Shown here: positions 2,159-17,383 of the stretch, piece after piece
Numbering within the stretch: the first letter of the stretch is position 1
Layout: each line of letters opens with the position of its first letter
Assembly (NCBI GenBank): GCA_945957605.1
Contig: CAMFLR010000005.1
Coordinates: 186,001 to 250,000 of the forward strand
DNA length: 64,000 nt
Reading direction: 5' to 3'
Source: an uncultured Isosphaeraceae bacterium
GTDB taxonomy: Bacteria > Planctomycetota > Planctomycetia > Isosphaerales > Isosphaeraceae
Translations under genes and position numbers: made by a program
The notes under the pieces: model-generated
What the model saw: the letters and a program-made list of their open reading frames with translations, nothing else
Told to the model about the DNA's origin: nothing
The model's database searches: none

Positions 2159-2764
2159 ATGAATTCGTCTCCCGAGTTTGAACAGGTGCTGGAAGGGTTC
2201 CAAAATAAGGAGCCGCGCGCCTACGAAGAAATCTTCTCGCGATATGTTCGACGTCTAACCGCGCTCGCATCGCGTCAGTTCGACTCAGGAATCCGCAATC
2301 GTGCCGACCCTGAAGGTGTGGTGCAATCGGTCTATCGCAGCTTCTTCGCACGCGACGCAAGCAGCTATCAGTTCGACGATTGGGACGCAATTTGGCGGTT
2401 GCTCGCGGTCATCACCGTCCGCAAGTGCTGGAAGCGCAGGGCGAAATATCGCAAGGAACAACTCGTCCCCCTCCCCAATTTCGATGACGACGATGCGGTC
2501 GCCAGCGCAAGTGCGCGAGAGTGGGCGAAGTTCGTCGACCACGAGCCCACACCCGCAGAGGCCGTTGCGCTCACGGAGACGATCAGTCGACTATTCACCG
2601 GCTTGAAACCGCTCGACCTCAATCTCGCGAGCTTCATCCTTCAGGGGTTCACCGCGGTCGAAATCGCCGAACGCTTCCAGTGCTCGGAAAAGCGAGTGCG
2701 GAAGCTACGCATCGCGCTCCGCGAGCGTTTGCGCGCGATCAAGGCGGAAGAGAGCCAGGACTAG
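2159..2764 (+). CDS. ECF-family RNA polymerase sigma factor (planctomycete type)
   Basis: A 201-residue protein of normal length for an ECF sigma factor. Residues 14-90 form the region 2 helices (AYEEIFSRYVRRL, then DPEGVVQSVYRSFF and a WRLLAVITVRKCWKR stretch). Residues 140-195 hold region 4, with the helix-turn-helix FTAVEIAERFQCSEKRVRKL that would bind the -35 element. A GGGG-rich site lies about 10 bases before ATG 2159. The stop is 18 bp before the kinase gene, so the two are probably co-transcribed. This pairing is a planctomycete hallmark and suggests signal-dependent control of the sigma factor or its targets by the kinase. No anti-sigma factor is seen nearby. Confidence 0.9.
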   Translation: MNSSPEFEQVLEGFQNKEPRAYEEIFSRYVRRLTALASRQFDSGIRNRADPEGVVQSVYRSFFARDASSYQFDDWDAIWRLLAVITVRKCWKRRAKYRKEQLVPLPNFDDDDAVASASAREWAKFVDHEPTPAEAVALTETISRLFTGLKPLDLNLASFILQGFTAVEIAERFQCSEKRVRKLRIALRERLRAIKAEESQD

Positions 2765-2782
2765 CCCGGAGCCCCCACGCCC

Positions 2783-4324
2783 ATGCCGGAGCCCGCCGAT
2801 CCGCTCGGATCAGACTCAACTATTCGCGACGCTCTCGAGCGCTTCGAGGAAGCCCTCTGGCAAGGTGCGAAGCCCGAGATCGACGCCTTTCTCGCCGCGA
2901 CAAATACTCTGCACGCTGATCAATTGCGGCGTGACTTCACCGCCGATCTCGTCTTCGCCGAGTTCGAATATCGCCTCAAGTCAGGCGAACCCGCGCGTGT
3001 TGAGGAATATCTAGCGCGCTATCTCGACGCTTTCACGCACGAGAGTCTCATCGACCTGATCGTCACCGAATGGTCGATTCGGCGCCGCAACGAAGCGACG
3101 CCGCCCGCCGACTCCGAATATCAAACGCGATTTCCTCGCGAATATGACGTTTTCCTGCGCGCACGCGAGCGAAGGTCGGTCGTACCGTCACACGGTGTCG
3201 ACTCCTCATCCATGCCGATGACAGGGGCGATCCCAGCGCCTCGCAGTTTGCCATCGCTGTTCGGCCGTTTCGAGCTGCGCGAAGTGATTGGCGAAGGTGC
3301 GTTCGGCATCGTCTACCGCGCCTGGGATCCTTACGCGCGACAACATCTCGCTGTGAAGATTGCCCGCGAGCACGCGCGAGGCGAAACCGAAGGAGCACGC
3401 ACGTTTCTCCGCGAAGCGCGAATCGCCTCGCACCTGAAACATCCCAACATTGTTCGCGTGCTCGAAGCAGGAACCGAAGGCGACGACAACACGCCCTATC
3501 ACGTCGCCGACCTGATTGAAGGCCGAACCCTCGCCAACGCAATTGCCGACGGCCCCCTGCCATTTGCGACGTCCGCCCAGTTGATGGCGACGATCGCCGA
3601 CGCTCTCTCGTACGCTCACGAACACGAGCGGCACGTCGTGCATCGCGACCTGAAACCGTCGAACATTTTGCTCGACGCCAACGATAACCCTCACCTCACC
3701 GACTTCGGTTTCGCCCAGCGCGACGGCGGCGAGCTCTCGGCCGTGGTGCTGCCCAAAGGAAGCCGGTTCGGCACAATCGCCTATATGTCGCCCGAACAGG
3801 CCCGCGGCATCGAAACCCTCGCTCCCGCCAGCGACATCTTCTCTGCAGGAATCATCTTCTTCGAGATGCTCACCGGCGAGCTTCCGTTTCGTGGTCGCGA
3901 GCCGATGTTGCTGGCCCAAATCATCAGCGACGACCCGCCTTCGCCCCGTCGGCTCAACGACGCGATCCCATCCAAGCTCGAAGCGATTTGCCTCAAAATG
4001 CTGGCAAAACGCCCCGAAGATCGCCATGGGTCGGCCGCGCGACTGCGCGACGACCTCCGCGATTACCTCGATGAAGTTCCCACCGACGAAATCATCACGG
4101 AAGAAACGAACACCTGGACGAATTTCAGCAACGAAATCCAAGGTCGGCCGCTTCGTTCGCTGGCGATCGCCTATTTCGTTCTCTCCGGCCTCATTGCAAC
4201 GCCAATTTTAATGTTCAACTATTTCACAAGAACCCCACCCGCCGCCGCCATACCTGCAACGCCGATCCTTCGCAGCGAGCCGATCGACCCGGTCACCGGC
4301 GTGCCCAGGATTGTGCCGCGGTGA
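2783..4324 (+). CDS. Membrane-anchored Hanks-type Ser/Thr protein kinase
   Basis: A 513-residue protein. Residues 1-130 are the helical N-terminal segment common in planctomycete kinases. The catalytic domain spans about 161-430: glycine loop GEGAFGIVY (170-178), ATP-binding Lys192, C-helix Glu211, HRDLKPSN with catalytic Asp289, DFG at 307-309 and the MSPEQARG activation segment. All key residues are present, so it should be active. One membrane segment (about 460-480) leaves a short Pro-rich tail of about 33 residues outside, with no sensor domain visible. It follows the sigma factor by 18 bp. Its stop lies 1 bp from the stop of the convergent rarA gene, with no terminator between. Confidence 0.93.
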   Translation: MPEPADPLGSDSTIRDALERFEEALWQGAKPEIDAFLAATNTLHADQLRRDFTADLVFAEFEYRLKSGEPARVEEYLARYLDAFTHESLIDLIVTEWSIRRRNEATPPADSEYQTRFPREYDVFLRARERRSVVPSHGVDSSSMPMTGAIPAPRSLPSLFGRFELREVIGEGAFGIVYRAWDPYARQHLAVKIAREHARGETEGARTFLREARIASHLKHPNIVRVLEAGTEGDDNTPYHVADLIEGRTLANAIADGPLPFATSAQLMATIADALSYAHEHERHVVHRDLKPSNILLDANDNPHLTDFGFAQRDGGELSAVVLPKGSRFGTIAYMSPEQARGIETLAPASDIFSAGIIFFEMLTGELPFRGREPMLLAQIISDDPPSPRRLNDAIPSKLEAICLKMLAKRPEDRHGSAARLRDDLRDYLDEVPTDEIITEETNTWTNFSNEIQGRPLRSLAIAYFVLSGLIATPILMFNYFTRTPPAAAIPATPILRSEPIDPVTGVPRIVPR

Positions 4325-5950: not shown

Positions 5951-8900
5951 ATGCAAGTGCATCGTAATTTTATGTTTGCGTGTTTGAATGGCGTTTTTGT
6001 CGCGATGCTTGCCCTCGCGCCAACCTGGGCTCAGGATGCCGATTCCGACGGCGGAAACGACTCTGCCGAACGAAAAACGATGGAACGGTTTCAAACCGTA
6101 CTCGAACGTAACCCCAGACGCGGCACCGCGCTCGACCGCGTATACGGTTATCACGTCGAACACGGCACGCTCGATAGCCTCGTAAAACGGTATGACGATC
6201 GTATCAAAGCCGATAAATCCGATGGCGCAGCCTGGCTGCTGCTCGGGCTCGTCGAAGCTCAGCGCGGGAAAGATGCCGCAGCAGTCACCGCCTTTCGCGA
6301 AGCCGAAAAGACGCGTGCCAACGACTCGCTTGCATCGTTCTATCTGGGGCAGGCGCTCGTGCTCGTCGGCCAGCCCGATCAGGCCGTCGATGCATTTGAA
6401 CGTGCCTTGACCAAGAAGCCGATTCGGGCCGATTTGCTCGAAGTCTACCAGGCGCTGGGACGAGTCCACCAACGCGCCCGCCGCGCCGAAAAAGCGCTCG
6501 CCGTCTGGACGAGGCTTGAAGCGGCATTCCCCGATGACACGCGCGTCCGCGAGCAAATCGCCGCCGCGCTCGCCGAGGAAGATCAACCGGCTCAGGCGCT
6601 TGCACGTTACCAGACGTTGATTACTGATGTTCGCGACGAGTATCGCAAGGTACAACTCGCGATGGACGCGGCCGAGCTGAAGGTGCGGCTTGGCAAGGCG
6701 CCCGAAGCGCTCGAAGACTTCGGCAAGTTGCTGGGCAAGCTCAATCCCGACTCGTGGATGTTCAAGGAAGTGCGCAGGAAGATCGAGGAAGTGTTCCTGC
6801 GGAACGACGACCTCATCGGCCTCGCCAAGTATTACGAAGGCTGGATCGTCAAGACGCCGGACGACGTCGAGGCAATGGCACGGCTGGGCCGAACCTATGC
6901 CCAGCTCGGCCGGGCAGCTGATGCGCGAAGTTGGCTCGACAAGGCCGTGAAGCTCGCACCGACGCGCCGTGACCTCCGCATGACGCTCATCGAACAGCTC
7001 GTGCAGGAAAAGAAGATCGACGACGCCGCGGCCGAGTACGAGAAACTCGCCAAGACTGACCCCGGCAATCCCGACATCATTCGCGAGTGGGGCAAGCTGC
7101 TGTTGCGCGACGGCTCGAAGCCGATCGACCAGCGCAAGGCCGCCGCGGCCGCCGTGTGGAAACGGCTCGCGGGTGATGACGTGAAAGACGCCGTCACAAT
7201 CGCGCAGGCCGCCGACCTCTTTCGTCAGGCCGAAATGGTCGACGACGCGATCGCGCTCTACAAGCGGGCCATCGCCCTCGCGCCCGATTCAGCGCAGTAC
7301 CGCGAATATCTCGGCGAATACTACCACCAGCTCAAGCGCAGGGACGACGCTCTGGCCACCTGGCGCACCGGCGTTGGCAAAACAGCCGCCGAGCTGGGAC
7401 GGCTCGGCGAGGTGCTCGCGGGCTTCGGCTATCGCCAGGAGGCCCTCGACCCGCTCTTGCAAGCGGTGAAGCTCGCCCCCGATGATTTCGACCTCAGGCT
7501 CAAACTCGCCGATCTTTATCTGCAGCTCGATCGTCCCAAAGACGCACTCCCCGAAGTGATGGCCGCGCGCAAGGCGTCGTCCGGGCCCGAGCAGGCGGAA
7601 GCGGTACTTGGCCGCGAGATCAAGACGTACCAGGCGAGCAAAACGCTTGGTGACGAGATCGCCAAGCTTCAGGCCGATCTCAACGCGGGCAAAGACGCAA
7701 CCGGCGAGCGCTGGTCGCGGCTGGCGAGTTTCTATGAGGCCGACGGTAAGACGAACGAGGCAATCGTCGCTGCAACCAGCGCGACGAAGGCCGACCCGAA
7801 GTCGATTCCGTCTTGGGTTGCACTCGCGCGGTTGCAGGAAGGCTCGGGCAACCTCGGCGGCGCGGTCGATGCGAATCACACGCTCGCAGGACTCGATCGT
7901 CGTGCGCGTGCCGACTATCTCTCCGCCATCGCGCGACTTGAATCGCGGCTCGGGCGCAAAGCCGAGGCGCTGAAGGCCGGTCGCGACTTGCTCGCTGCCG
8001 CACCCGGGAATTCGGACCGACTCCAGGAATTCGCCGACCTTTGCTTCAGCCTCGGTGAAAACGACGAAGGTCTTGAAACCCTCCGGCGCTCGGCGCGAAG
8101 CAACCCGACCGACCCCAAGGCCACAACCACCCTCGCCGAAGCCCTCGCCCGCCAGTTCCGCACCGAAGAGGCAATCGAGCTCTTCTGGCGCTCGTTTGAT
8201 CGCACGAAGGAACTCGATGCCAAGCTCGGCATCGTCTCGCGTCTGACCGACCAGTACCTCCAACGCAACCAGTTCGATCGTCTGATCGCCCGGCTCGAAC
8301 GTGAGCTGCGCGAGCCCGATCGCAAGCGCGAGCTGACAATCTGTCTCGCACAGGCGTATCAAGCGGCGGGCGACCTCGGTGCGGCTCGTCAGCAACTTGA
8401 ATCGCTGCTCACAGCGAATCCGCGCGACGCGGCGCTTCTCTTCCAGCTCGCCCAACTCGCCGAAACCGAGGGGGATGTCGCATCCGCCGCGCGCTACCAA
8501 CGCCAGGCGGTTGATATTGCTCCGACTCCCGAAGCTACAGTCAAACTGGCACAATTGTTCATGCGTGCGGGAGAGATCAGCGAGGCCGAAGTGGTCTGGT
8601 CGAAGCTCGCGACGAATGATCAGGAGGCGGCTCGAGCCATCACCGCCATCGATAGCTTGCTCACCAACTCGAAGTACGACACGGTTGTCAGTCTCACGGA
8701 GCGGATGCTGCTCAAGAATCCCAAGGATTGGGAGGTGCTCTACCGCGAGGGCTTTGCGCTTCAAAACAAGGGAAAAATGCCCGAAGCGTTGAAGAGATTC
8801 CAGGCGATTCTCGACCTGAACGGAAACGACGACGACCTCTCCGCACTCATGAAGGCGAGGCGTAAGAATCCGTCGGGCACGTCCGGTGCCCAGGCGGGTG

Positions 8901-11900
8901 TGGTTGCCAGCCGGAACACCTCGCCATACGTGTTCCCGGCCTACACTCGCATCAACAGCGCACAGCAGCTTCGCTCGGTCGTTGGGCTCGATAACCGCTA
9001 CTACTTTGGCACCAACTACATCTGGTCCCCGACCGATTTCGGCTCGGCTCGCGAAGGCGCGATCGCCTGGCTTTACGCCGAGTCTCAAAAGGACAAGAAC
9101 GATTCCGAAGCGTGGACCAAAGCCCGGCGCGCGGTGATCGATTCGGGCAAGGCCGATAAACGCACGCTTTGGGACTGGTACTACCTCCAACTGATTCGCA
9201 ACGACAACAAGGAAATCTTCAAGGCATCAGCCAGTCTCGTCCGGGCCGACGGCGGCGACACTGCCGCGCTCATGGCATTCCTCACTGCGACCGCAAACCG
9301 CGGCGTCGATGCTTCCCAAATGTACGTCCGCAGCACGACCAACGCCAAAACCGATACAACGCCCCCGCTTCCTCCCGCCGATCTCCAACTCGTGCTCGAT
9401 GCGTTTGACTCCCTCAAGAAGCGCCGCCCCGATCTGCTCTTGCCTAACTTCGTGACGACCGTCAACACCGAACTAAAGCGTGCCAAGCGCGAGAACGATG
9501 TGGCTGCCTTCTACAAGGCTGCGATGGCCAGTGCGAACACGCTCGAAACCGTGAGCTCGGCGCTCGACTACGCAGCCGATCAGGGAAGCCTCGACGATCT
9601 CTTCTCCCTCGCCGACAAGTACGAGCGATTGCAACTCGCCAATCCTCGGGGGAATCTTTCGAACCGCCCGTTAGCGCAAGGCCTCGCCACTTCATTCGGC
9701 CGGGCGATGGGAGTGAAGGCCGACACAAAGGATCACGCTGCGATCCTGAAAATCCTCGACCATTACCTTGCGTCGTCCTGGAAGCCCGACCAGATGGCGG
9801 CGAGGCAGAAGTCGTCGACGTCTTCGATGGTGCGCGGTCAGGCTGCGTATTTTTACGTGTACATGACCAAGCCCTCGCCGACGCAGAACACACGCTACAC
9901 CCAGGTCGATTTCCCAAGTCCCAACGCCTATTTCGACCTTGGAGCGATCCAGCTGCTCCGCAATACCTACGAAATCTTCAAGCGCGACGACGTTGTGAGC
10001 GATCTGATGAATCGCTTCCGCAGCGATATCACCAAGGCGCCCGCAAACGCGAAGATCTTCCCCACGCTCGCGCTCACCTATCTCCTTTGGTGGAATGACG
10101 AGAAGGAAGAATCGCTCCGCGAATTCGGGCGCGGGTGCGACCTGGTCAAGAACGACATCGACCTCCGGCTCAACTTCGCCGAGATGCGTGCCCAGCGCGG
10201 CGAAGCGGCGGAGGCACTCGAGACCGTCGATCAGGTCGAACCGCTCGACCAGAAAACGATGCAGCGTCGTGAAACCCTGGCGCTCCGGCTGTCGGTTCTG
10301 TCGGGCGATATCCAGCGCGCCCGCAAGGCGGCCGAGCGGCTATTCGGTCTCCGGCTCGATAGTGACACGCAAATCCAGCTTGCCGGCCAGATGAACCAGC
10401 TCGGCATGCACGACCTTTCCGAAGCCGTGATGGCTCGCGCCCGGCGGTCGGCGGGCGGCAACAGCACCGTGCTTGTCAACTTGATGAACCAGTACCAGAG
10501 CCAGGGTAAGGCAGATATCGCGGTGCAGGTTGCCAACCAGATCATGCGCCAGACGAGCGGTTCGCGCAATGCTCAGCCGGGTTCGGTCACGGTCAACGAT
10601 CAGGCCCGCATGGCAGCCGTCCAGCTCTTCTCACGCTCGGGCAAGCTCAAGGATCTCATCGCCCGCGCCGAAGCACAGCTTGAATCATCGCCGAACTCGC
10701 CGGCCTTGCTGCAAACGCTCGTCGACTACTACCAGGCCGATCAACAGCGCGACAAGGTCAAGGCAACCTACGCGCGGCTCGCCAAGCTCAAGGCCGAAGA
10801 TCCGCGTGCACTCTTCCAGATCGCCATCGACCTTTCCCGCGCAGGCGCCTCGAACGAAGCACTCGAGCTCTACCGCACTTCGCTCAAGAAAGATCCATCG
10901 CTCTTCGCCAACCAGTATTACGAAGTGCAGCGAGCCTTCCAGCAGGCCGGCAAGACTGACGAACTGATAAAGCTTTACGACTCGATGGACTTCAAAACCT
11001 TCCGCAACAACCCGTACGTGATTCAAAACACGATCAACGAGTTGATGCAGAACGAAAAAACGCGCGATCAGGCAATGGTTCTCTTCCGCAAGGCCTGGAA
11101 AGAACTGCCGCAGGTGCGCACTCAGCTCATCGGCAACCTCTATAACGATGAATTCTGGAAAGTCGCGGAAATCTTCGACTACGCCCGCGAAGCCGTCATC
11201 CCCAAGCCTGGCGCAGCGATCAACGATGCCTGGGCCGGCCTTGAGGAGATCGACTCCTACGGCGGCGACGGCACGGTGAACGGCGTGCTCACGCGCCTCT
11301 TCCAGGCGGCCGAGCGGCAGAACAAGCTCGACACGCTCGTCAAGGAAGTCGATGCGGCGTTGGCACGCACACCCGAGTGGACGGGCGGCCGTGCGCTTTC
11401 CGCGATACTCAAGGCGAAGCGCGGTCAAGTTCAGGAAGCACATAAAGACTTTGAAGCACTGCTTTCGTCCGGCAAGGAAATCCCTTCGAGCGCGCGCATG
11501 CTCGTCAGCCAGGAACTGGGCAAGATCGCCTCGCTCAAGGATATCGAGCTGAAGCTGCTCGAAGAGGGTGCGCTCGATAACGAGATGGCACGCAATAACG
11601 GCTTCCAGTATGGACCGGGGCGGCGGCTCGTCACGCTCTATCAGAAGAATGGCCGCGTCAATGACGCCCGCGACCTGTTGATGAAATACGCTGCAAATCG
11701 CGGCAATTTTGATGGATACGACCCGTCGTATGCCGCATACCGGCGCATTCAGGATGGGATGACGGTTGCTCAGCTCCTCAACGAACTGGGTTATCCGGCC
11801 GAAGCTGCGCGGTTCTACAACGATCTCGCGAACGATCCCGATTCGATCACGAACGCCCGCCAGTATTACGGCAACTCTGACCAGATCCTGCTGCAGGTTC

Positions 11901-14900
11901 GCCGGGGAATGGAGCAGTCGCTGGGTCAGATGAACGCGCAAACCGCCGAGCGCACCGTTCGCACGCTGCTCACGCCACGCCCGAATCGTAAGGAAACCGA
12001 TCTGGTTCTTGACCTCGTGGTACTGTGTCACCCGCGCGAGATCGACAAGACGGGCATGCTCTGCGTGTTTGCGGAAGCGGTCAATCCCAAGACGGCAACT
12101 TCCGCGATTCGCACCGAGGCGAAGGAACTGCTCGCGAAGCTCGAAAAGGCACATCCCACCGATCTTTCGGTCCTCACCGCGCTGGCGATTCTGGCCGGAC
12201 AGGAATCGAAACCCGATGACTTGGCTGCCGTCGCCGCGAAGTTGGCGAAGTTCGTCGAGACACATCCACTCGACGCACTTCCCGCCAGCGGACGGCCCAA
12301 CGGTCGCCAGCGCCAAGAAGCCGAACAACAGCTCATGCTCTGGGTGGCAGCGCGGCTTTGCCTGGCGCACGACGCCACGCGCAGTAATGGCGAGATCCTG
12401 ACCGCTCGCGTACTTGAAGCCGCGCGCCGTCAGAGCGACTCGCGCTGGTCGCTCGCCATCCTTCGTGAGTCATCGCAGAACGCGTTCGATCGCGGCGACA
12501 AGAAGGCGGCGGAAGAAGCATGGCGGAACATGCTCCGCCTCGTGCTCGCCGCCCCAGTCCCCAAGAGTGCAAGCGGTACCGGCGGCACAACCGGGACCAT
12601 TTCGGTTCTGCCACGCACGGCGGTCGTTCAATCAAGCGGTCCCATTACGATGACCAAGGCGGCGGTCCGCCTCAATGCGGGTACCGCGTCAGACGCGATC
12701 GTTGTCACGCTCGAACGCTTCGAGCAGGTAGTGCAACTCGCCAAGCTTTTCGCCGCACACGACCAGACGGCACTCTCGGTCGACGCCGTGAAACAAGCGC
12801 TCGCGACGGGACCGCCCGTCACGCCGATGGTCGTGACCAACGCCAACCAGCGCGTGTATTCCTCTGGCAATATGAATCCCGCGGACGCGGCTGCCGCGCA
12901 AACGTCGCTACGGGTCGAGGAAAACCTTAACACGCTCGAACGCATTTGGACCCAGAAAAAGGCCGATCCCGCTGCCGTCTACGGGGTGCTGAAAGACGCG
13001 GTTTTCCCCGTCAGCAGGCCCAAGGAAATCTTCCTGTACACCAGACCGTCAAATCCCAATCAAGACAACATCCAACCGCTCCGTAGCGTTTCCACGCTCC
13101 TCGTGCGTTGGGCGAATCAGGCGAACAAGGCGGAAGATCTTCGCCAGACAATCGCGGCCCGTGAAAAGCAGCCGCTCGCACAGGCACCCGCGAAGGTACT
13201 CCGCGGCCAGCTTGAATTCGCACTCAAGAATTACCCCGCCACGAATGCAGTCCTCGACGAAATCCGCCAGGGAACGTCGAAAGACGGCCTGAACGTGTCG
13301 AGCGAAATGACGTTCCTCATCGCGCTTCCCACGCTTGACGTCAAGGAAACGGCCGATGCGTCGGCGAAGCTTTTTGAATCGGCGCTCGGTCGATTGAATG
13401 CTCCTGGAAACAGCGATGAAACCGGCGCGAACTTCCAAATGCGGCTCGCCCGGCACTATTTCGACGTGGATCGCCCCGCCGACGCGAAACGACTTCTCTT
13501 GGCGTATCTTACGCGTATTCAGGAAGCATATTCGCGCTACTCTGGCGATTACATCTTCTATCGCCGAAAGCTCGGCCTGGGGAACGTCGCGACCGAGTTC
13601 GCGCTTCACGGCCAGCTTGCCGATGCGCTCGACATGCTCGGCCAGTACGAAGACTTGCCGCTCTCTGCCAATTATGGACTCATGTCCAACGGCCGAGCCG
13701 TCCGCGCCGTTCTCGATCTGCTCGACGCATTGCCCGTCGCCGAGCGGTACAAGATCGTCAAAACGTGGATGCTACCGTCCGAGAATCGTCGATCGGTGCG
13801 CTGGGAGGTGACGCTGGTCAACGCGAACGTCGGCAACCAGGGGAATACGGCAGCGAACGGCAAGCATGGCGAACGCGGTCTGTACGCGATGTCGACCGTT
13901 CTCATCGACGCTGCGAAGGAACTCAAACAGCTCGATGCGCTGGCGCATGAGGTTCGTCCACTCGTTGAGAAGAAGGTCGAACATGCCGACGACCTGATGA
14001 ATCAGATCGAAATCGTCCGGGGCAATACCAAGGATGCGGTAGCCGTTCTAAACGCGCGATCCATCGAACTCAAAAAGCCAGCAGTGCCCGACCAGTATCG
14101 TGGGATGCCGCAGGTATCGCTCACCGATTATCTGCTCTTGCGCCACAGTTTCGATTCGACCGACCCCGCGCTTAACGCCGCGGCCGAAGCGATGTGGCCG
14201 AACCTGATGGCACGTGCGCAATCCGCTCAGAACTATCAGTTGATCGGCGATTTGCGGCGCGACCTTGCGTACTTCACCACGAAGCGCGCAGGCAAGCTCG
14301 ACCTCGCGCTTGCGGGCGATCCAGAATTGCCGCTCTGGCATCCTCGCGCCAGCAACCTCTTTAGCGGAAACGAGGGTCCGGGATCTCGCGCCATCTGGGC
14401 CGAATCGAACGGAATCGTCGCGCACGTGGCGGGACAGGGCGAAGACTTTTTCATGTTCCGCTACCCGCTCATCGGCACATTCGAGATCTCGATCGATGCC
14501 TACAACGGCGGCCATTCCGAAGGGCAAATTGGCTATTCCGGACTCATAAGCGAACCCAGCAATTTCGGGAACAACAGCACAATCCACACCGTCGGCCAGG
14601 ACGATAGAGTGCAGCTCCCCGCGCCCGCCATTAGGGGCGAGTCATTCAACCAGATGAAGATTCGCGTCGAGCCGGGCAAGGTCAGCTACTTCAATAACGG
14701 CCATCTCTTCTACGAAGACAAAACACCCGCAATCACCAGCCCGTGGCTATTCCTCCGCTCCTCACGCGAACGTGCTCCCGCGTTCCGCAACGCCGTCATC
14801 ACGGGCCAGCCGCAAATCCCTCGCGAGGTGGCGCTGGTGCAAGGAGATCGGCTCGATGGATGGGTCACCGGCAATATGCTCGGCGGCCAGTTGGCTCCAC

Positions 14901-17383
14901 GTCGGCGTCCTGAAGAACTGGTTTCCCGGCAGGCGATGAACTTGGGGATCATGGATATCACTCCGCCGAAGCCAAGCTGGTCGGCGCACGACGGCGAGCT
15001 CGTCGGCATTCGTGAACCGCAGCCAGGCGTCGATAATCCGCCGGCGAATCGGATCGTCTACACGCGGCCGCTCGAATCCGGCGACGAACTCTCGTATGAG
15101 TTCTTCTACAAGCCGAGCGAGACGATGGTCCATCCCACGCTCGGCGGTTTCGCCTTCGTGATCGAGCCCGCTGGCCTGAAGTTGCGACCCCTCCGGTCGA
15201 CGAATGATGAATACTACAACTATAATCCGAATGTGAATGCCCCCAAGCCTCCGAAGCCCGATCAGACCGACGCTGCAGGCAAGCGCGGCGAGATCGCACT
15301 GAAGGCCGATGCGTGGAACCAGGCATCGCTGCGAGTCACCGGCAAAACGCTGGCGATCACGCTCAACGGCACCAAAATCTACGAGCGTGAGATCGACCCG
15401 GAAGACAGCGACTTCGGCTTCTATCACAAACTGCCCGAAGGCAACGCCCGGCTCCGCAAGATCGTCCTCAAGGGGGACTGGCCCGCCGCACTCAAGCCCG
15501 AGCAAATGGCGAATCTGTTCCAGCGCGACCCCGCCAAACCGCGCGACCGCGCCACGCTCGCCGCTTCAGCAGTGCTCGTCTCCGAGAAGTACCTCGTTCT
15601 CGAAGGCTCTGAACTGATCGAACGCACCCGCAAGCTGCCCGCCGCGCAGCGGTACGACCAACTCCTTGCGTGGGTTCTACCCAACGTCGATCACACCACG
15701 CTGCGGCTGGTCTCGCGTTACGGTCAAACGGCGCTACCGAACGAAGGCACGCTCGAATCACCGGCCATCGCGCTCGTGGCCGCGGCGAAGGAAGCGAACA
15801 AGCTCGATGCACTCGCCTCACTCGTCACGGAAACCAAGGTCATCAACGACCTCGACCGTCGTGGCCGGCTCGCGCTCCTGGCGATGATCCGTCACGCGCA
15901 GAACAACGTCCCCGAAGCCGGCAAACTTCTGGGCGAGTTGAAAACGCTCGCCGAGAAAGCGATCGTTAAAGAAACGCCAGACGCCGAACGCTGGCCCGAA
16001 CTGGTCGTTGCAACGGCGCTCCTTTCCGAAACCAGGCTGAACGGCGAGGTTTTCGCGCTGCTCGATATGCTCGTGAACCAAATCCAGCAAACGCAGTACT
16101 GGAGCGATCTGGAGCGACACGTCCGTGTGGTTCACGGCCGCGCGAAGCTTGCGAAACTGGCGCAGTCCAATCCCGGACCCATTCCGGGCTGGATTCCGGC
16201 CGTGGTCGACAATTGCGAGAAAAATGGCCTCGGTTACCCCGCGCCGGTCTGGACGTACAAAAACGGCGAGTGGACGCATTACCCGGGCCACGATCACGAC
16301 TTCCTCTTCCTCAATACGCCGCTGCTCGGCGATTTCGAGGTCACCTGCGACCTGAGCTCGTTCGGCTGGCGCGAGGCGCGAATCTCGTACGGCGGGCTGA
16401 CAATCGGCCTGCTCTACACGGCCAAGGGCTACGAGATTCTCCACTACGGGTATTCGATTGCGCTCAACGGCGTCATCGACCCGCCGCTCGCCGACGTGAA
16501 GGACTTCTACTCCTTCAAGCTCGTGGTGAAGGGGAACCTTGCGACCGTGTACATGAGCGGGCGAAAGATTCACGAACAGGCTGTCTCGCGCGAGCAAAGC
16601 CCGTGGCTGGCCCTTTATGCACTTTCGCAATCGACCGCGACGTTCCGCAACCTCAAGATCAGCGGCAAGCCGGTGGTCCCCGCGGTGATTTCGCTTTCTG
16701 GTACGTCGGATCTCAATGGCTGGCTCGGTAACTACTACGGCGAGCCGGTCGAAGGGGAAGCAGCCTACTGGCAGAAGCGCGGCGAGGAAATCATCGGCCG
16801 GCGGCTCGATCCCAAGATGGATCTGTCGCAGCGAAACAATCGATCCGGTCAACCTGCGCGTATGCATCCCGAGGCAATCGCCGGTAGCAAGATTGAAACC
16901 TTGCTGCGCTACGCGCGGCCGCTCGCCGAGGATTGCGAGGTCGAATACGAATTCTATTACGACGGCTCAGGTACGCAGGTCGCACCCGCGCTTGGCCGGA
17001 CCGCTTTCCTTATCGAGCCCGACGGATTGACGCTGCACCGGATCACCGAGGGCAAATTCGAGCGTTCAGGTCTCGATCCGGCGAATGCAACGCCGGTTGC
17101 GGCCGATCGCCGGGGTCCGCTGGCTCTCAAGCCGAAGGCGTGGAATAAGATCAAGCTCGCGACGAAGGGAGACCGCGTGACGATCACCCTGAACGACGCG
17201 GCGATTCATGAACATCAGATCAAGCCGGGCGATACACGCGAGTTCGGATTCTTCCATTACGCGGACGAATCCGAGGCGCGGGTACGCAATGTCCGGCTCA
17301 CGGGTATGTGGCCGAAAGCTGTTGCTCGGGAACTGATGGAAACGCAGCAAACCGCGCTGGCGCCGGCGGCAGCAAAGCCCTGA
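5951..17383 (+). CDS. Giant secreted TPR protein with duplicated DUF1583-like C-terminal modules
   Basis: An uninterrupted frame of 3810 residues. A signal peptide (hydrophobic core FACLNGVFVAMLALAP, cleavage near TWAQ) sends it to the periplasm or beyond. Residues from about 40 to at least 1000 are dense TPR repeats (for example WLLLGLVEAQRGKDAAAVTA); helical repeat sequence continues to about 2790. Two beta-rich modules follow, about 2794-3180 and 3411-3793, with matching landmarks (SPWLFLRS/SPWLALYA, FVIEPAGLKL/FLIEPDGLTL, DFGFYHKL/EFGFFHYA). They resemble planctomycete DUF1583 and the concanavalin-like DUF1080 fold. The helical segment before each module is duplicated too (LPVAERYKIV/LPAAQRYDQL). 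No transmembrane anchor or enzymatic motif is seen. A protein-interaction scaffold with carbohydrate- or ligand-binding ends is inferred. Confidence 0.85.
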   Translation: MQVHRNFMFACLNGVFVAMLALAPTWAQDADSDGGNDSAERKTMERFQTVLERNPRRGTALDRVYGYHVEHGTLDSLVKRYDDRIKADKSDGAAWLLLGLVEAQRGKDAAAVTAFREAEKTRANDSLASFYLGQALVLVGQPDQAVDAFERALTKKPIRADLLEVYQALGRVHQRARRAEKALAVWTRLEAAFPDDTRVREQIAAALAEEDQPAQALARYQTLITDVRDEYRKVQLAMDAAELKVRLGKAPEALEDFGKLLGKLNPDSWMFKEVRRKIEEVFLRNDDLIGLAKYYEGWIVKTPDDVEAMARLGRTYAQLGRAADARSWLDKAVKLAPTRRDLRMTLIEQLVQEKKIDDAAAEYEKLAKTDPGNPDIIREWGKLLLRDGSKPIDQRKAAAAAVWKRLAGDDVKDAVTIAQAADLFRQAEMVDDAIALYKRAIALAPDSAQYREYLGEYYHQLKRRDDALATWRTGVGKTAAELGRLGEVLAGFGYRQEALDPLLQAVKLAPDDFDLRLKLADLYLQLDRPKDALPEVMAARKASSGPEQAEAVLGREIKTYQASKTLGDEIAKLQADLNAGKDATGERWSRLASFYEADGKTNEAIVAATSATKADPKSIPSWVALARLQEGSGNLGGAVDANHTLAGLDRRARADYLSAIARLESRLGRKAEALKAGRDLLAAAPGNSDRLQEFADLCFSLGENDEGLETLRRSARSNPTDPKATTTLAEALARQFRTEEAIELFWRSFDRTKELDAKLGIVSRLTDQYLQRNQFDRLIARLERELREPDRKRELTICLAQAYQAAGDLGAARQQLESLLTANPRDAALLFQLAQLAETEGDVASAARYQRQAVDIAPTPEATVKLAQLFMRAGEISEAEVVWSKLATNDQEAARAITAIDSLLTNSKYDTVVSLTERMLLKNPKDWEVLYREGFALQNKGKMPEALKRFQAILDLNGNDDDLSALMKARRKNPSGTSGAQAGVVASRNTSPYVFPAYTRINSAQQLRSVVGLDNRYYFGTNYIWSPTDFGSAREGAIAWLYAESQKDKNDSEAWTKARRAVIDSGKADKRTLWDWYYLQLIRNDNKEIFKASASLVRADGGDTAALMAFLTATANRGVDASQMYVRSTTNAKTDTTPPLPPADLQLVLDAFDSLKKRRPDLLLPNFVTTVNTELKRAKRENDVAAFYKAAMASANTLETVSSALDYAADQGSLDDLFSLADKYERLQLANPRGNLSNRPLAQGLATSFGRAMGVKADTKDHAAILKILDHYLASSWKPDQMAARQKSSTSSMVRGQAAYFYVYMTKPSPTQNTRYTQVDFPSPNAYFDLGAIQLLRNTYEIFKRDDVVSDLMNRFRSDITKAPANAKIFPTLALTYLLWWNDEKEESLREFGRGCDLVKNDIDLRLNFAEMRAQRGEAAEALETVDQVEPLDQKTMQRRETLALRLSVLSGDIQRARKAAERLFGLRLDSDTQIQLAGQMNQLGMHDLSEAVMARARRSAGGNSTVLVNLMNQYQSQGKADIAVQVANQIMRQTSGSRNAQPGSVTVNDQARMAAVQLFSRSGKLKDLIARAEAQLESSPNSPALLQTLVDYYQADQQRDKVKATYARLAKLKAEDPRALFQIAIDLSRAGASNEALELYRTSLKKDPSLFANQYYEVQRAFQQAGKTDELIKLYDSMDFKTFRNNPYVIQNTINELMQNEKTRDQAMVLFRKAWKELPQVRTQLIGNLYNDEFWKVAEIFDYAREAVIPKPGAAINDAWAGLEEIDSYGGDGTVNGVLTRLFQAAERQNKLDTLVKEVDAALARTPEWTGGRALSAILKAKRGQVQEAHKDFEALLSSGKEIPSSARMLVSQELGKIASLKDIELKLLEEGALDNEMARNNGFQYGPGRRLVTLYQKNGRVNDARDLLMKYAANRGNFDGYDPSYAAYRRIQDGMTVAQLLNELGYPAEAARFYNDLANDPDSITNARQYYGNSDQILLQVRRGMEQSLGQMNAQTAERTVRTLLTPRPNRKETDLVLDLVVLCHPREIDKTGMLCVFAEAVNPKTATSAIRTEAKELLAKLEKAHPTDLSVLTALAILAGQESKPDDLAAVAAKLAKFVETHPLDALPASGRPNGRQRQEAEQQLMLWVAARLCLAHDATRSNGEILTARVLEAARRQSDSRWSLAILRESSQNAFDRGDKKAAEEAWRNMLRLVLAAPVPKSASGTGGTTGTISVLPRTAVVQSSGPITMTKAAVRLNAGTASDAIVVTLERFEQVVQLAKLFAAHDQTALSVDAVKQALATGPPVTPMVVTNANQRVYSSGNMNPADAAAAQTSLRVEENLNTLERIWTQKKADPAAVYGVLKDAVFPVSRPKEIFLYTRPSNPNQDNIQPLRSVSTLLVRWANQANKAEDLRQTIAAREKQPLAQAPAKVLRGQLEFALKNYPATNAVLDEIRQGTSKDGLNVSSEMTFLIALPTLDVKETADASAKLFESALGRLNAPGNSDETGANFQMRLARHYFDVDRPADAKRLLLAYLTRIQEAYSRYSGDYIFYRRKLGLGNVATEFALHGQLADALDMLGQYEDLPLSANYGLMSNGRAVRAVLDLLDALPVAERYKIVKTWMLPSENRRSVRWEVTLVNANVGNQGNTAANGKHGERGLYAMSTVLIDAAKELKQLDALAHEVRPLVEKKVEHADDLMNQIEIVRGNTKDAVAVLNARSIELKKPAVPDQYRGMPQVSLTDYLLLRHSFDSTDPALNAAAEAMWPNLMARAQSAQNYQLIGDLRRDLAYFTTKRAGKLDLALAGDPELPLWHPRASNLFSGNEGPGSRAIWAESNGIVAHVAGQGEDFFMFRYPLIGTFEISIDAYNGGHSEGQIGYSGLISEPSNFGNNSTIHTVGQDDRVQLPAPAIRGESFNQMKIRVEPGKVSYFNNGHLFYEDKTPAITSPWLFLRSSRERAPAFRNAVITGQPQIPREVALVQGDRLDGWVTGNMLGGQLAPRRRPEELVSRQAMNLGIMDITPPKPSWSAHDGELVGIREPQPGVDNPPANRIVYTRPLESGDELSYEFFYKPSETMVHPTLGGFAFVIEPAGLKLRPLRSTNDEYYNYNPNVNAPKPPKPDQTDAAGKRGEIALKADAWNQASLRVTGKTLAITLNGTKIYEREIDPEDSDFGFYHKLPEGNARLRKIVLKGDWPAALKPEQMANLFQRDPAKPRDRATLAASAVLVSEKYLVLEGSELIERTRKLPAAQRYDQLLAWVLPNVDHTTLRLVSRYGQTALPNEGTLESPAIALVAAAKEANKLDALASLVTETKVINDLDRRGRLALLAMIRHAQNNVPEAGKLLGELKTLAEKAIVKETPDAERWPELVVATALLSETRLNGEVFALLDMLVNQIQQTQYWSDLERHVRVVHGRAKLAKLAQSNPGPIPGWIPAVVDNCEKNGLGYPAPVWTYKNGEWTHYPGHDHDFLFLNTPLLGDFEVTCDLSSFGWREARISYGGLTIGLLYTAKGYEILHYGYSIALNGVIDPPLADVKDFYSFKLVVKGNLATVYMSGRKIHEQAVSREQSPWLALYALSQSTATFRNLKISGKPVVPAVISLSGTSDLNGWLGNYYGEPVEGEAAYWQKRGEEIIGRRLDPKMDLSQRNNRSGQPARMHPEAIAGSKIETLLRYARPLAEDCEVEYEFYYDGSGTQVAPALGRTAFLIEPDGLTLHRITEGKFERSGLDPANATPVAADRRGPLALKPKAWNKIKLATKGDRVTITLNDAAIHEHQIKPGDTREFGFFHYADESEARVRNVRLTGMWPKAVARELMETQQTALAPAAAKP

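Follow-up and report, generated by a model that had tools for sequence, protein, structure and literature searches.

Tandem duplication of a helical and jelly-roll unit in a giant planctomycete gene

Background

One paper presents giant genes as a typical and largely unexplained feature of planctomycetes and counts, for Paludisphaera borealis, a member of the Isosphaeraceae, 26 such genes as well as 20 DUF1080 proteins, of which two have two homologous domains (PMC5352709). Two further papers describe known or proposed roles for DUF1080 proteins in acting on 3-keto-disaccharides and polysaccharides (PMC9007349, PMC5673643), and one of them has overlapping DUF1080 and CBM66 assignments in Thermogutta (PMC5673643). 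In the literature that was searched, DUF1581 was not named anywhere and DUF1583 appeared in one paper, on cyanophages. The same search found nothing that joined planctomycetes, giant genes and tetratricopeptide.

The window analyzed here is a stretch of 64,000 nucleotides from an uncultured bacterium of the Isosphaeraceae. It contains a giant gene whose ordered parts can now be read: a TPR solenoid, helical units that are related to one another and number at least five, and two heads, each made up of two jelly rolls. This anatomy is clearer than the family names give, and the interest of the locus is that of a worked-out giant gene. The best overall explanation, to which a probability of about 0.5 is assigned, is a giant secreted protein with an old tandem duplication of a whole unit, in which the solenoid would serve as a scaffold for two glycan-binding or glycan-processing heads.

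Layout of the giant gene

The open reading frame starts with ATG and ends with a stop codon 17-21 residues past the end of the second copy, copy B. Residues 1-27 resemble a signal peptide by eye, and from this N-terminus the protein is probably secreted. The solenoid that follows belongs to the TPR class; TPR_14 scores above the Pfam cut-off in ten stretches (127.9 bits), as do other TPR families. The parts are as follows.

5951-17383, + strand: giant open reading frame, 3810 residues; signal-peptide-like N-terminus, TPR solenoid, helical solenoid, then two helical-plus-jelly-roll units
6122-8860, + strand: TPR-rich region, about residues 58-970, with many Pfam TPR stretches; limits approximate
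11084-11755, + strand: U1, upstream helical unit akin to the helical part of copies A and B, residues 1712-1935; profile match 4.2e-5, model of residues 1700-2794
11876-12568, + strand: U2, weakest of the three upstream helical units, residues 1976-2206; profile match 1.9e-3
12890-13549, + strand: U3, helical unit directly before copy A, residues 2314-2533; profile match 2.4e-5
13670-14329, + strand: helical segment of copy A, residues 2574-2793 (first 20 uncertain); profile comparison, AlphaFold model
14330-14836, + strand: jelly roll 1 of copy A, residues 2794-2962, DUF1581 inside; Pfam, profile comparison, AlphaFold model
14837-15490, + strand: jelly roll 2 of copy A, residues 2963-3180, DUF1583_N; H3061, G3066, R3079, V3095
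15491-15577, + strand: linker between the units, residues 3181-3209
15578-16183, + strand: helical segment of copy B, residues 3210-3411; profile comparison, AlphaFold model
16184-16696, + strand: jelly roll 1 of copy B, residues 3412-3582, DUF1581 inside, CBM66-like fold
16697-17329, + strand: jelly roll 2 of copy B, residues 3583-3793, DUF1583_N, DUF1080-like fold; A3678, R3683, H3696, N3712

The tandem duplication

A reading of the sequence alone had proposed that residues 2594-3180 and 3229-3793 are tandem duplicates. The two stretches, which correspond to 13730-15490 and 15635-17329 and match the range given in that reading, align end to end in one BLASTP alignment (190 bits, E 2e-57) with 185 identities in 619 positions (30%), and all of the motifs it had quoted are present in this alignment. 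The local score of copy A against copy B is 511; 300 shuffles gave a mean of 40, a standard deviation of 5 and a maximum of 62. The homology possibly starts about 20 residues earlier, near residues 2574 and 3210, an extension that is weak (75% probability over 27 columns).

The helical segment had also been thought to be copied along with the beta module, and profile comparison of helical A with helical B bears this out (99.8% probability, E 8e-30). In profile comparisons across relatives, the copies match with E 9e-44 for jelly roll 1 and E 1e-77 for jelly roll 2. The statement that the whole arm was copied thus holds for one helical unit and two jelly rolls; the TPR region and the solenoid of U1-U3 were not copied. 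The label of a DUF1583-like domain needs correction as well. Each copy matches DUF1581 (PF07619; 57.9 bits for A and 65.9 bits for B, curated cut-off 27) and DUF1583_N (PF20407; 92.6 and 180.2 bits, curated cut-off 22.9), and the DUF1583 C domain (PF07622) has no match in the giant gene. Within the same genome, a search for this C domain matched only another contig, in a separate 287-residue frame (L001, G000:C13:213316-213945, - strand). No NCBIfam family was found for either copy.

In addition, jelly roll 1 resembles jelly roll 2 both within and across the units (96-98% probability over about 145 columns), so the two rolls of the beta module are related and form an older pair, and the repetition is nested. 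The unit in each copy is a helical segment of about 200 residues followed by a CBM66-like (DUF1581) and a DUF1080-like (DUF1583_N) jelly roll.

Folds, conserved residues and possible function

AlphaFold modeling of residues 2594-3793 with 25 sequences (pLDDT 83.0, pTM 0.84) gives helices followed by strands, twice. The fold matches span mostly copy B, and the fold of copy A is assigned by homology. In the model, jelly roll 1 of copy B resembles CBM66 (4azz; Z 13.5, rmsd 3.0, 145 residues aligned, 16% identity); it has the CBM66-type jelly-roll fold, and a shared fold alone shows no function. The modeled jelly roll 2 of copy B resembles the DUF1080 proteins 3imm (Z 13.5) and 3hbk (Z 13.4), as well as the 3-keto-glycoside eliminase/hydratase structures 9fbe (Z 13.9), 8rr2 (Z 13.0) and 8v31 (Z 13.0). 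At the sequence level, the DUF1080 profile (PF06439, cut-off 26.8 bits) gives 36.6 bits for copy B and 26.7 bits, 0.1 below the cut-off, for copy A, both as partial matches limited to the C-terminal third of the profile (about 40 columns). The profile of jelly roll 2 matches 3imm at E 3.5e-4 over 41 columns. Foldseek matches of the tandem model to long chains such as neurexins and ryanodine receptors were set aside, with TM-scores near 0.1.

Forty-three columns are conserved in both copies, and four polar ones in jelly roll 2 form an H-R-H-N set. The set is intact in 25 of the 38 copies A and 26 of the 38 copies B of the giant proteins, and three or more of its positions differ only in copy A of the window and in copy A of one other giant protein (L090). 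The corresponding residues in the window are H-G-R-V for copy A and A-R-H-N for copy B. The replacements of R by G at 3066 and of H by R at 3079 are clearer than that of N by V at 3095, which is alignment-dependent, with an N at 3096 beside an insertion. Copy A of the window keeps 37 of the 43 conserved columns and copy B keeps 42. From these counts and the losses in the H-R-H-N set, copy A is, as judged from its residues, the more eroded copy in this genome, and its main role as a head may lie in binding or in structure.

From its TPR makeup, the TPR and helical solenoid would form a periplasmic or cell-surface scaffold for protein partners. The C-terminus carries an old tandem duplication of a unit of about 630 residues, which was probably copied whole, with both copies retained. 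The duplication, its relative age and the domain makeup are shown by the data, and secretion, location, ligand and any catalysis are inferred. The two terminal heads would, from their fold class, bind or possibly process glycans, and copy B would be the one that keeps more of the conserved H-R-H-N residues in this genome. With its boundaries clear, its evolutionary history traced and a set of candidate residues named, the unit is a concrete target for expression and testing.

A stronger functional claim is that the jelly rolls are enzymes, each unit being a DUF1080-type glycan-processing head, such as a 3-keto-glycoside hydrolase or eliminase, that the solenoid merely presents. The modeled resemblance to 9fbe, 8rr2 and 8v31 points in this direction, as do the H-R-H-N set, which is a candidate site, and the DUF1080 hydrolases described in bacteria, including a planctomycete, in two papers (PMC9007349, PMC5673643). 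However, the sequence match to DUF1080 is partial only, and many non-catalytic jelly rolls reach similar scores (Z 13.5 for CBM66, 11-13 for lectin-like folds), so that an enzymatic role for both heads is a tentative and somewhat unlikely reading.

Age and distribution of the duplication

DUF1583_N occurs at E 1e-8 or better in at least 79 of 397 genomes of a class-wide sample, the counts being lower bounds because the genome searches scored 9 or 12 candidates per genome. Among the named relatives from a public genome collection are records of Isosphaeraceae, Gemmataceae, Planctomycetaceae and Rhodopirellula. Within the family of the window, the profile of the giant solenoid was found in 17 of 45 genomes, the same 17 that have DUF1583_N, in a co-occurrence test that is not fully independent, as the solenoid profile includes helical A. 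Presence in this family is patchy, yet solenoid and heads go together. Two genomes (G444 and G388) have two giant genes with the pair each (L062, L063, L064 and L065). In a relative of the same genus (G338, contig C53), the match to the solenoid falls into separate parts, the second of which contains a TGA and a TAG, and is a pseudogene or an assembly error.

The A/B pair is present in 38 of the 39 giant proteins examined, that of the window included. Across these 38, the linker measures 44-52 residues and the median period is 632, and 31 of them end no more than 31 residues past copy B. Among the relatives whose modules were listed, no protein had three full modules.

From 60 fetched regions, 139 full modules were extracted, the two of the window included. 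They comprise 38 first and 38 second copies from giant proteins, 13 first and 14 second copies from shorter double proteins, 35 modules from single-module proteins and one from a giant protein with a single full module. Modules covering less than 90% of the profile were dropped, including the first copy of L112 and three fragments of L105, at least two of them at contig edges; L115 and L112 were relabeled by hand as contig-edge cases. The sequence-only reading had suggested a tree of single- and double-module homologues as a check. A careful tree was made from 77 of the 139 rows, chosen by hand, with L086 and the long-branched L071 left out; in it, 33 A-type rows are split from 44 B-type rows by one branch supported at 100/100, and a FastTree of all 139 rows gives the identical split with support 99. 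First and second copies are thus separate, and each copy of the window groups with the copies in the same position of other proteins, not with its partner. The duplication is ancient and, as part of the best overall explanation, which has about even odds, the unit was copied before the giant and the shorter double-module proteins diverged, with both copies kept since.

The single-module proteins bear on how the double form arose. In the 139-row tree, 4 of the 35 group within the A side and 31 within the B side, with none between, and for this reason they look derived, probably through splitting of a double-form gene or through loss. Three loci carry what appears to be the split form of the double.

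L107:941-5736, L108:932-6623, L109:5654-11286: A-type single-module gene directly before a B-type single-module gene, same strand

The A-type gene of L106 has unrelated sequence after it. In L103, L104, L106 and L107, three to five single- or double-module genes stand in a row in one genome.

The adjacent genes could instead represent the older state, with the double protein a fusion of two neighboring paralogous genes. Such same-strand neighbors do exist in L107, L108 and L109, and each of these single-module proteins has, by eye, a signal-like N-terminus. Nevertheless, the A-type singles nest among the first copies of the double proteins on branches with support of 99/97 and 100/83, and double forms stand on both the giant and the shorter-protein sides of the tree. 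Given a root placed on the A/B branch by assumption rather than by an outgroup, the nesting favors splitting of a double gene over fusion, which leaves the fusion unlikely.

The boldest form of the functional proposal is a secreted glycan-processing arm with a solenoid of about 2500 residues and two heads, each pairing a CBM66-like binding roll with a DUF1080-like roll that bears a new H-R-H-N active site, in which copy A of this genome would be going non-catalytic. This combination is distinctly unlikely. If true, it would mean that the two heads were retained from a time when the giant and shorter proteins had not yet diverged, sometimes as two separate secreted proteins.

Upstream helical units and copying of the whole unit

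The helical profile also matches upstream of copy A in 32 of the 38 giant proteins, with 89 matches below 1e-2, and no upstream matches in reversed and block-shuffled control sequences. These matches cluster about 280, 650 and 930 residues before copy A. Generic TPR resemblance was considered as their source and rejected; 6 of the 89 fall in the TPR region, over 1900 residues upstream, where the matches listed are weak (best 5.0e-4), and the remaining ones cluster at the three positions. In a model of residues 1700-2794 (17 sequences; pLDDT 82.2, pTM 0.68), short strands followed by helix pairs form, by eye, a similar pattern in U1, U2 and copy A that is less clear in U3. Fold matches of the solenoid were large eukaryotic helical-repeat assemblies with low TM-scores and named no function.

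With profiles built from giant proteins only, helical A and B match each other with 156 bits. Their matches to U3 reach 83 and 91 bits, to U1 64 and 70 bits and to U2 49 and 37 bits, similarities that are partly by construction, since U1-U3 were extracted using matches to the A/B helical profile; the match of U1 to U3, at 92 bits, is less affected by how the units were cut out. In a tree of 99 of the 191 extracted helical units, a branch with SH-aLRT 94 (star threshold 95) has every helical segment of A and B on the same side. Even with U1-U3 present, helical A and B remain each other's nearest relatives, and these sequence comparisons support copying of the whole helical-plus-beta unit.

Parts of the unit can nonetheless separate, as one giant protein (L086:7130-18040, genome G152) keeps its second helical segment without the second pair of jelly rolls. 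Insertion of the jelly-roll pairs separately, after two pre-existing helical repeats whose likeness would be merely general solenoid kinship, would fit this protein and the recurrence of the helical unit upstream, but it is very unlikely given the greater likeness of helical A to helical B than of either to U1-U3, the separate grouping of A and B in the tree, and the near-constant linker and period in the 38 giant proteins. A recent or genome-specific duplication is rejected, as the copies are 30% identical and group by position, not by genome; the doubling, which many relatives share, reflects orderly protein evolution.

Gene neighborhood

Upstream of the giant gene, at 2159-4324 of the window, a Ser/Thr kinase gene comes directly after an ECF sigma factor gene in the order read. 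An operon conserved together with the neighboring sigma factor, kinase or ABC transporter was considered and rejected, with one match in 37 giant loci. Specifically, the sigma factor was not found near the 37 other giant genes (L062-L094, L116-L119), and a kinase-like reading frame was found in L063 only, in a search whose flanks were short and in which some loci end at contig edges. In L062, L125 and L132, a wrong-strand shadow reading frame was taken as the giant, which affected orientation only; all locus matches were still listed. The gene neighbors are not conserved and give no contextual support for a pathway.

Comparison with known systems

Overall, the duplication is a real, well conserved and ancient event in a known Pfam family and not a new kind of system. 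The tandem model gave a paired-domain Foldseek match to BT3469 (4jqt; E 1.9e-10), a DUF1080 protein with two jelly rolls, and two DUF1080-like stretches were matched in one chain. Superposition over both domains was poor (rmsd 20.5), indicating that the domain arrangement differs, and no helical segment is reported for BT3469. As modeled, jelly roll 1 of copy B shares the fold of CBM66 (4azz) and differs from it in sequence, at 16% identity. Similarly, the modeled jelly roll 2 of copy B has the fold of the DUF1080 or 3-keto-disaccharide hydrolase family (PF06439; 3imm, 3hbk, 9fbe) with Z 13-14, whereas the giant protein matches only the C-terminal third of the family profile, with copy A just under the cut-off.

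The giant protein is also close to the DUF1581 (PF07619) and DUF1583_N (PF20407) proteins of Planctomycetia. Both copies of the giant protein pass both curated cut-offs, and many relatives share the module. In the shorter relatives that were scanned (L103, L098 and the B-type protein of L107), the module is followed by a DUF1583 C domain, and one of the three also has a propeller-like tail; the giant protein has neither. In contrast to these relatives, the giant protein carries its modules on a giant solenoid.
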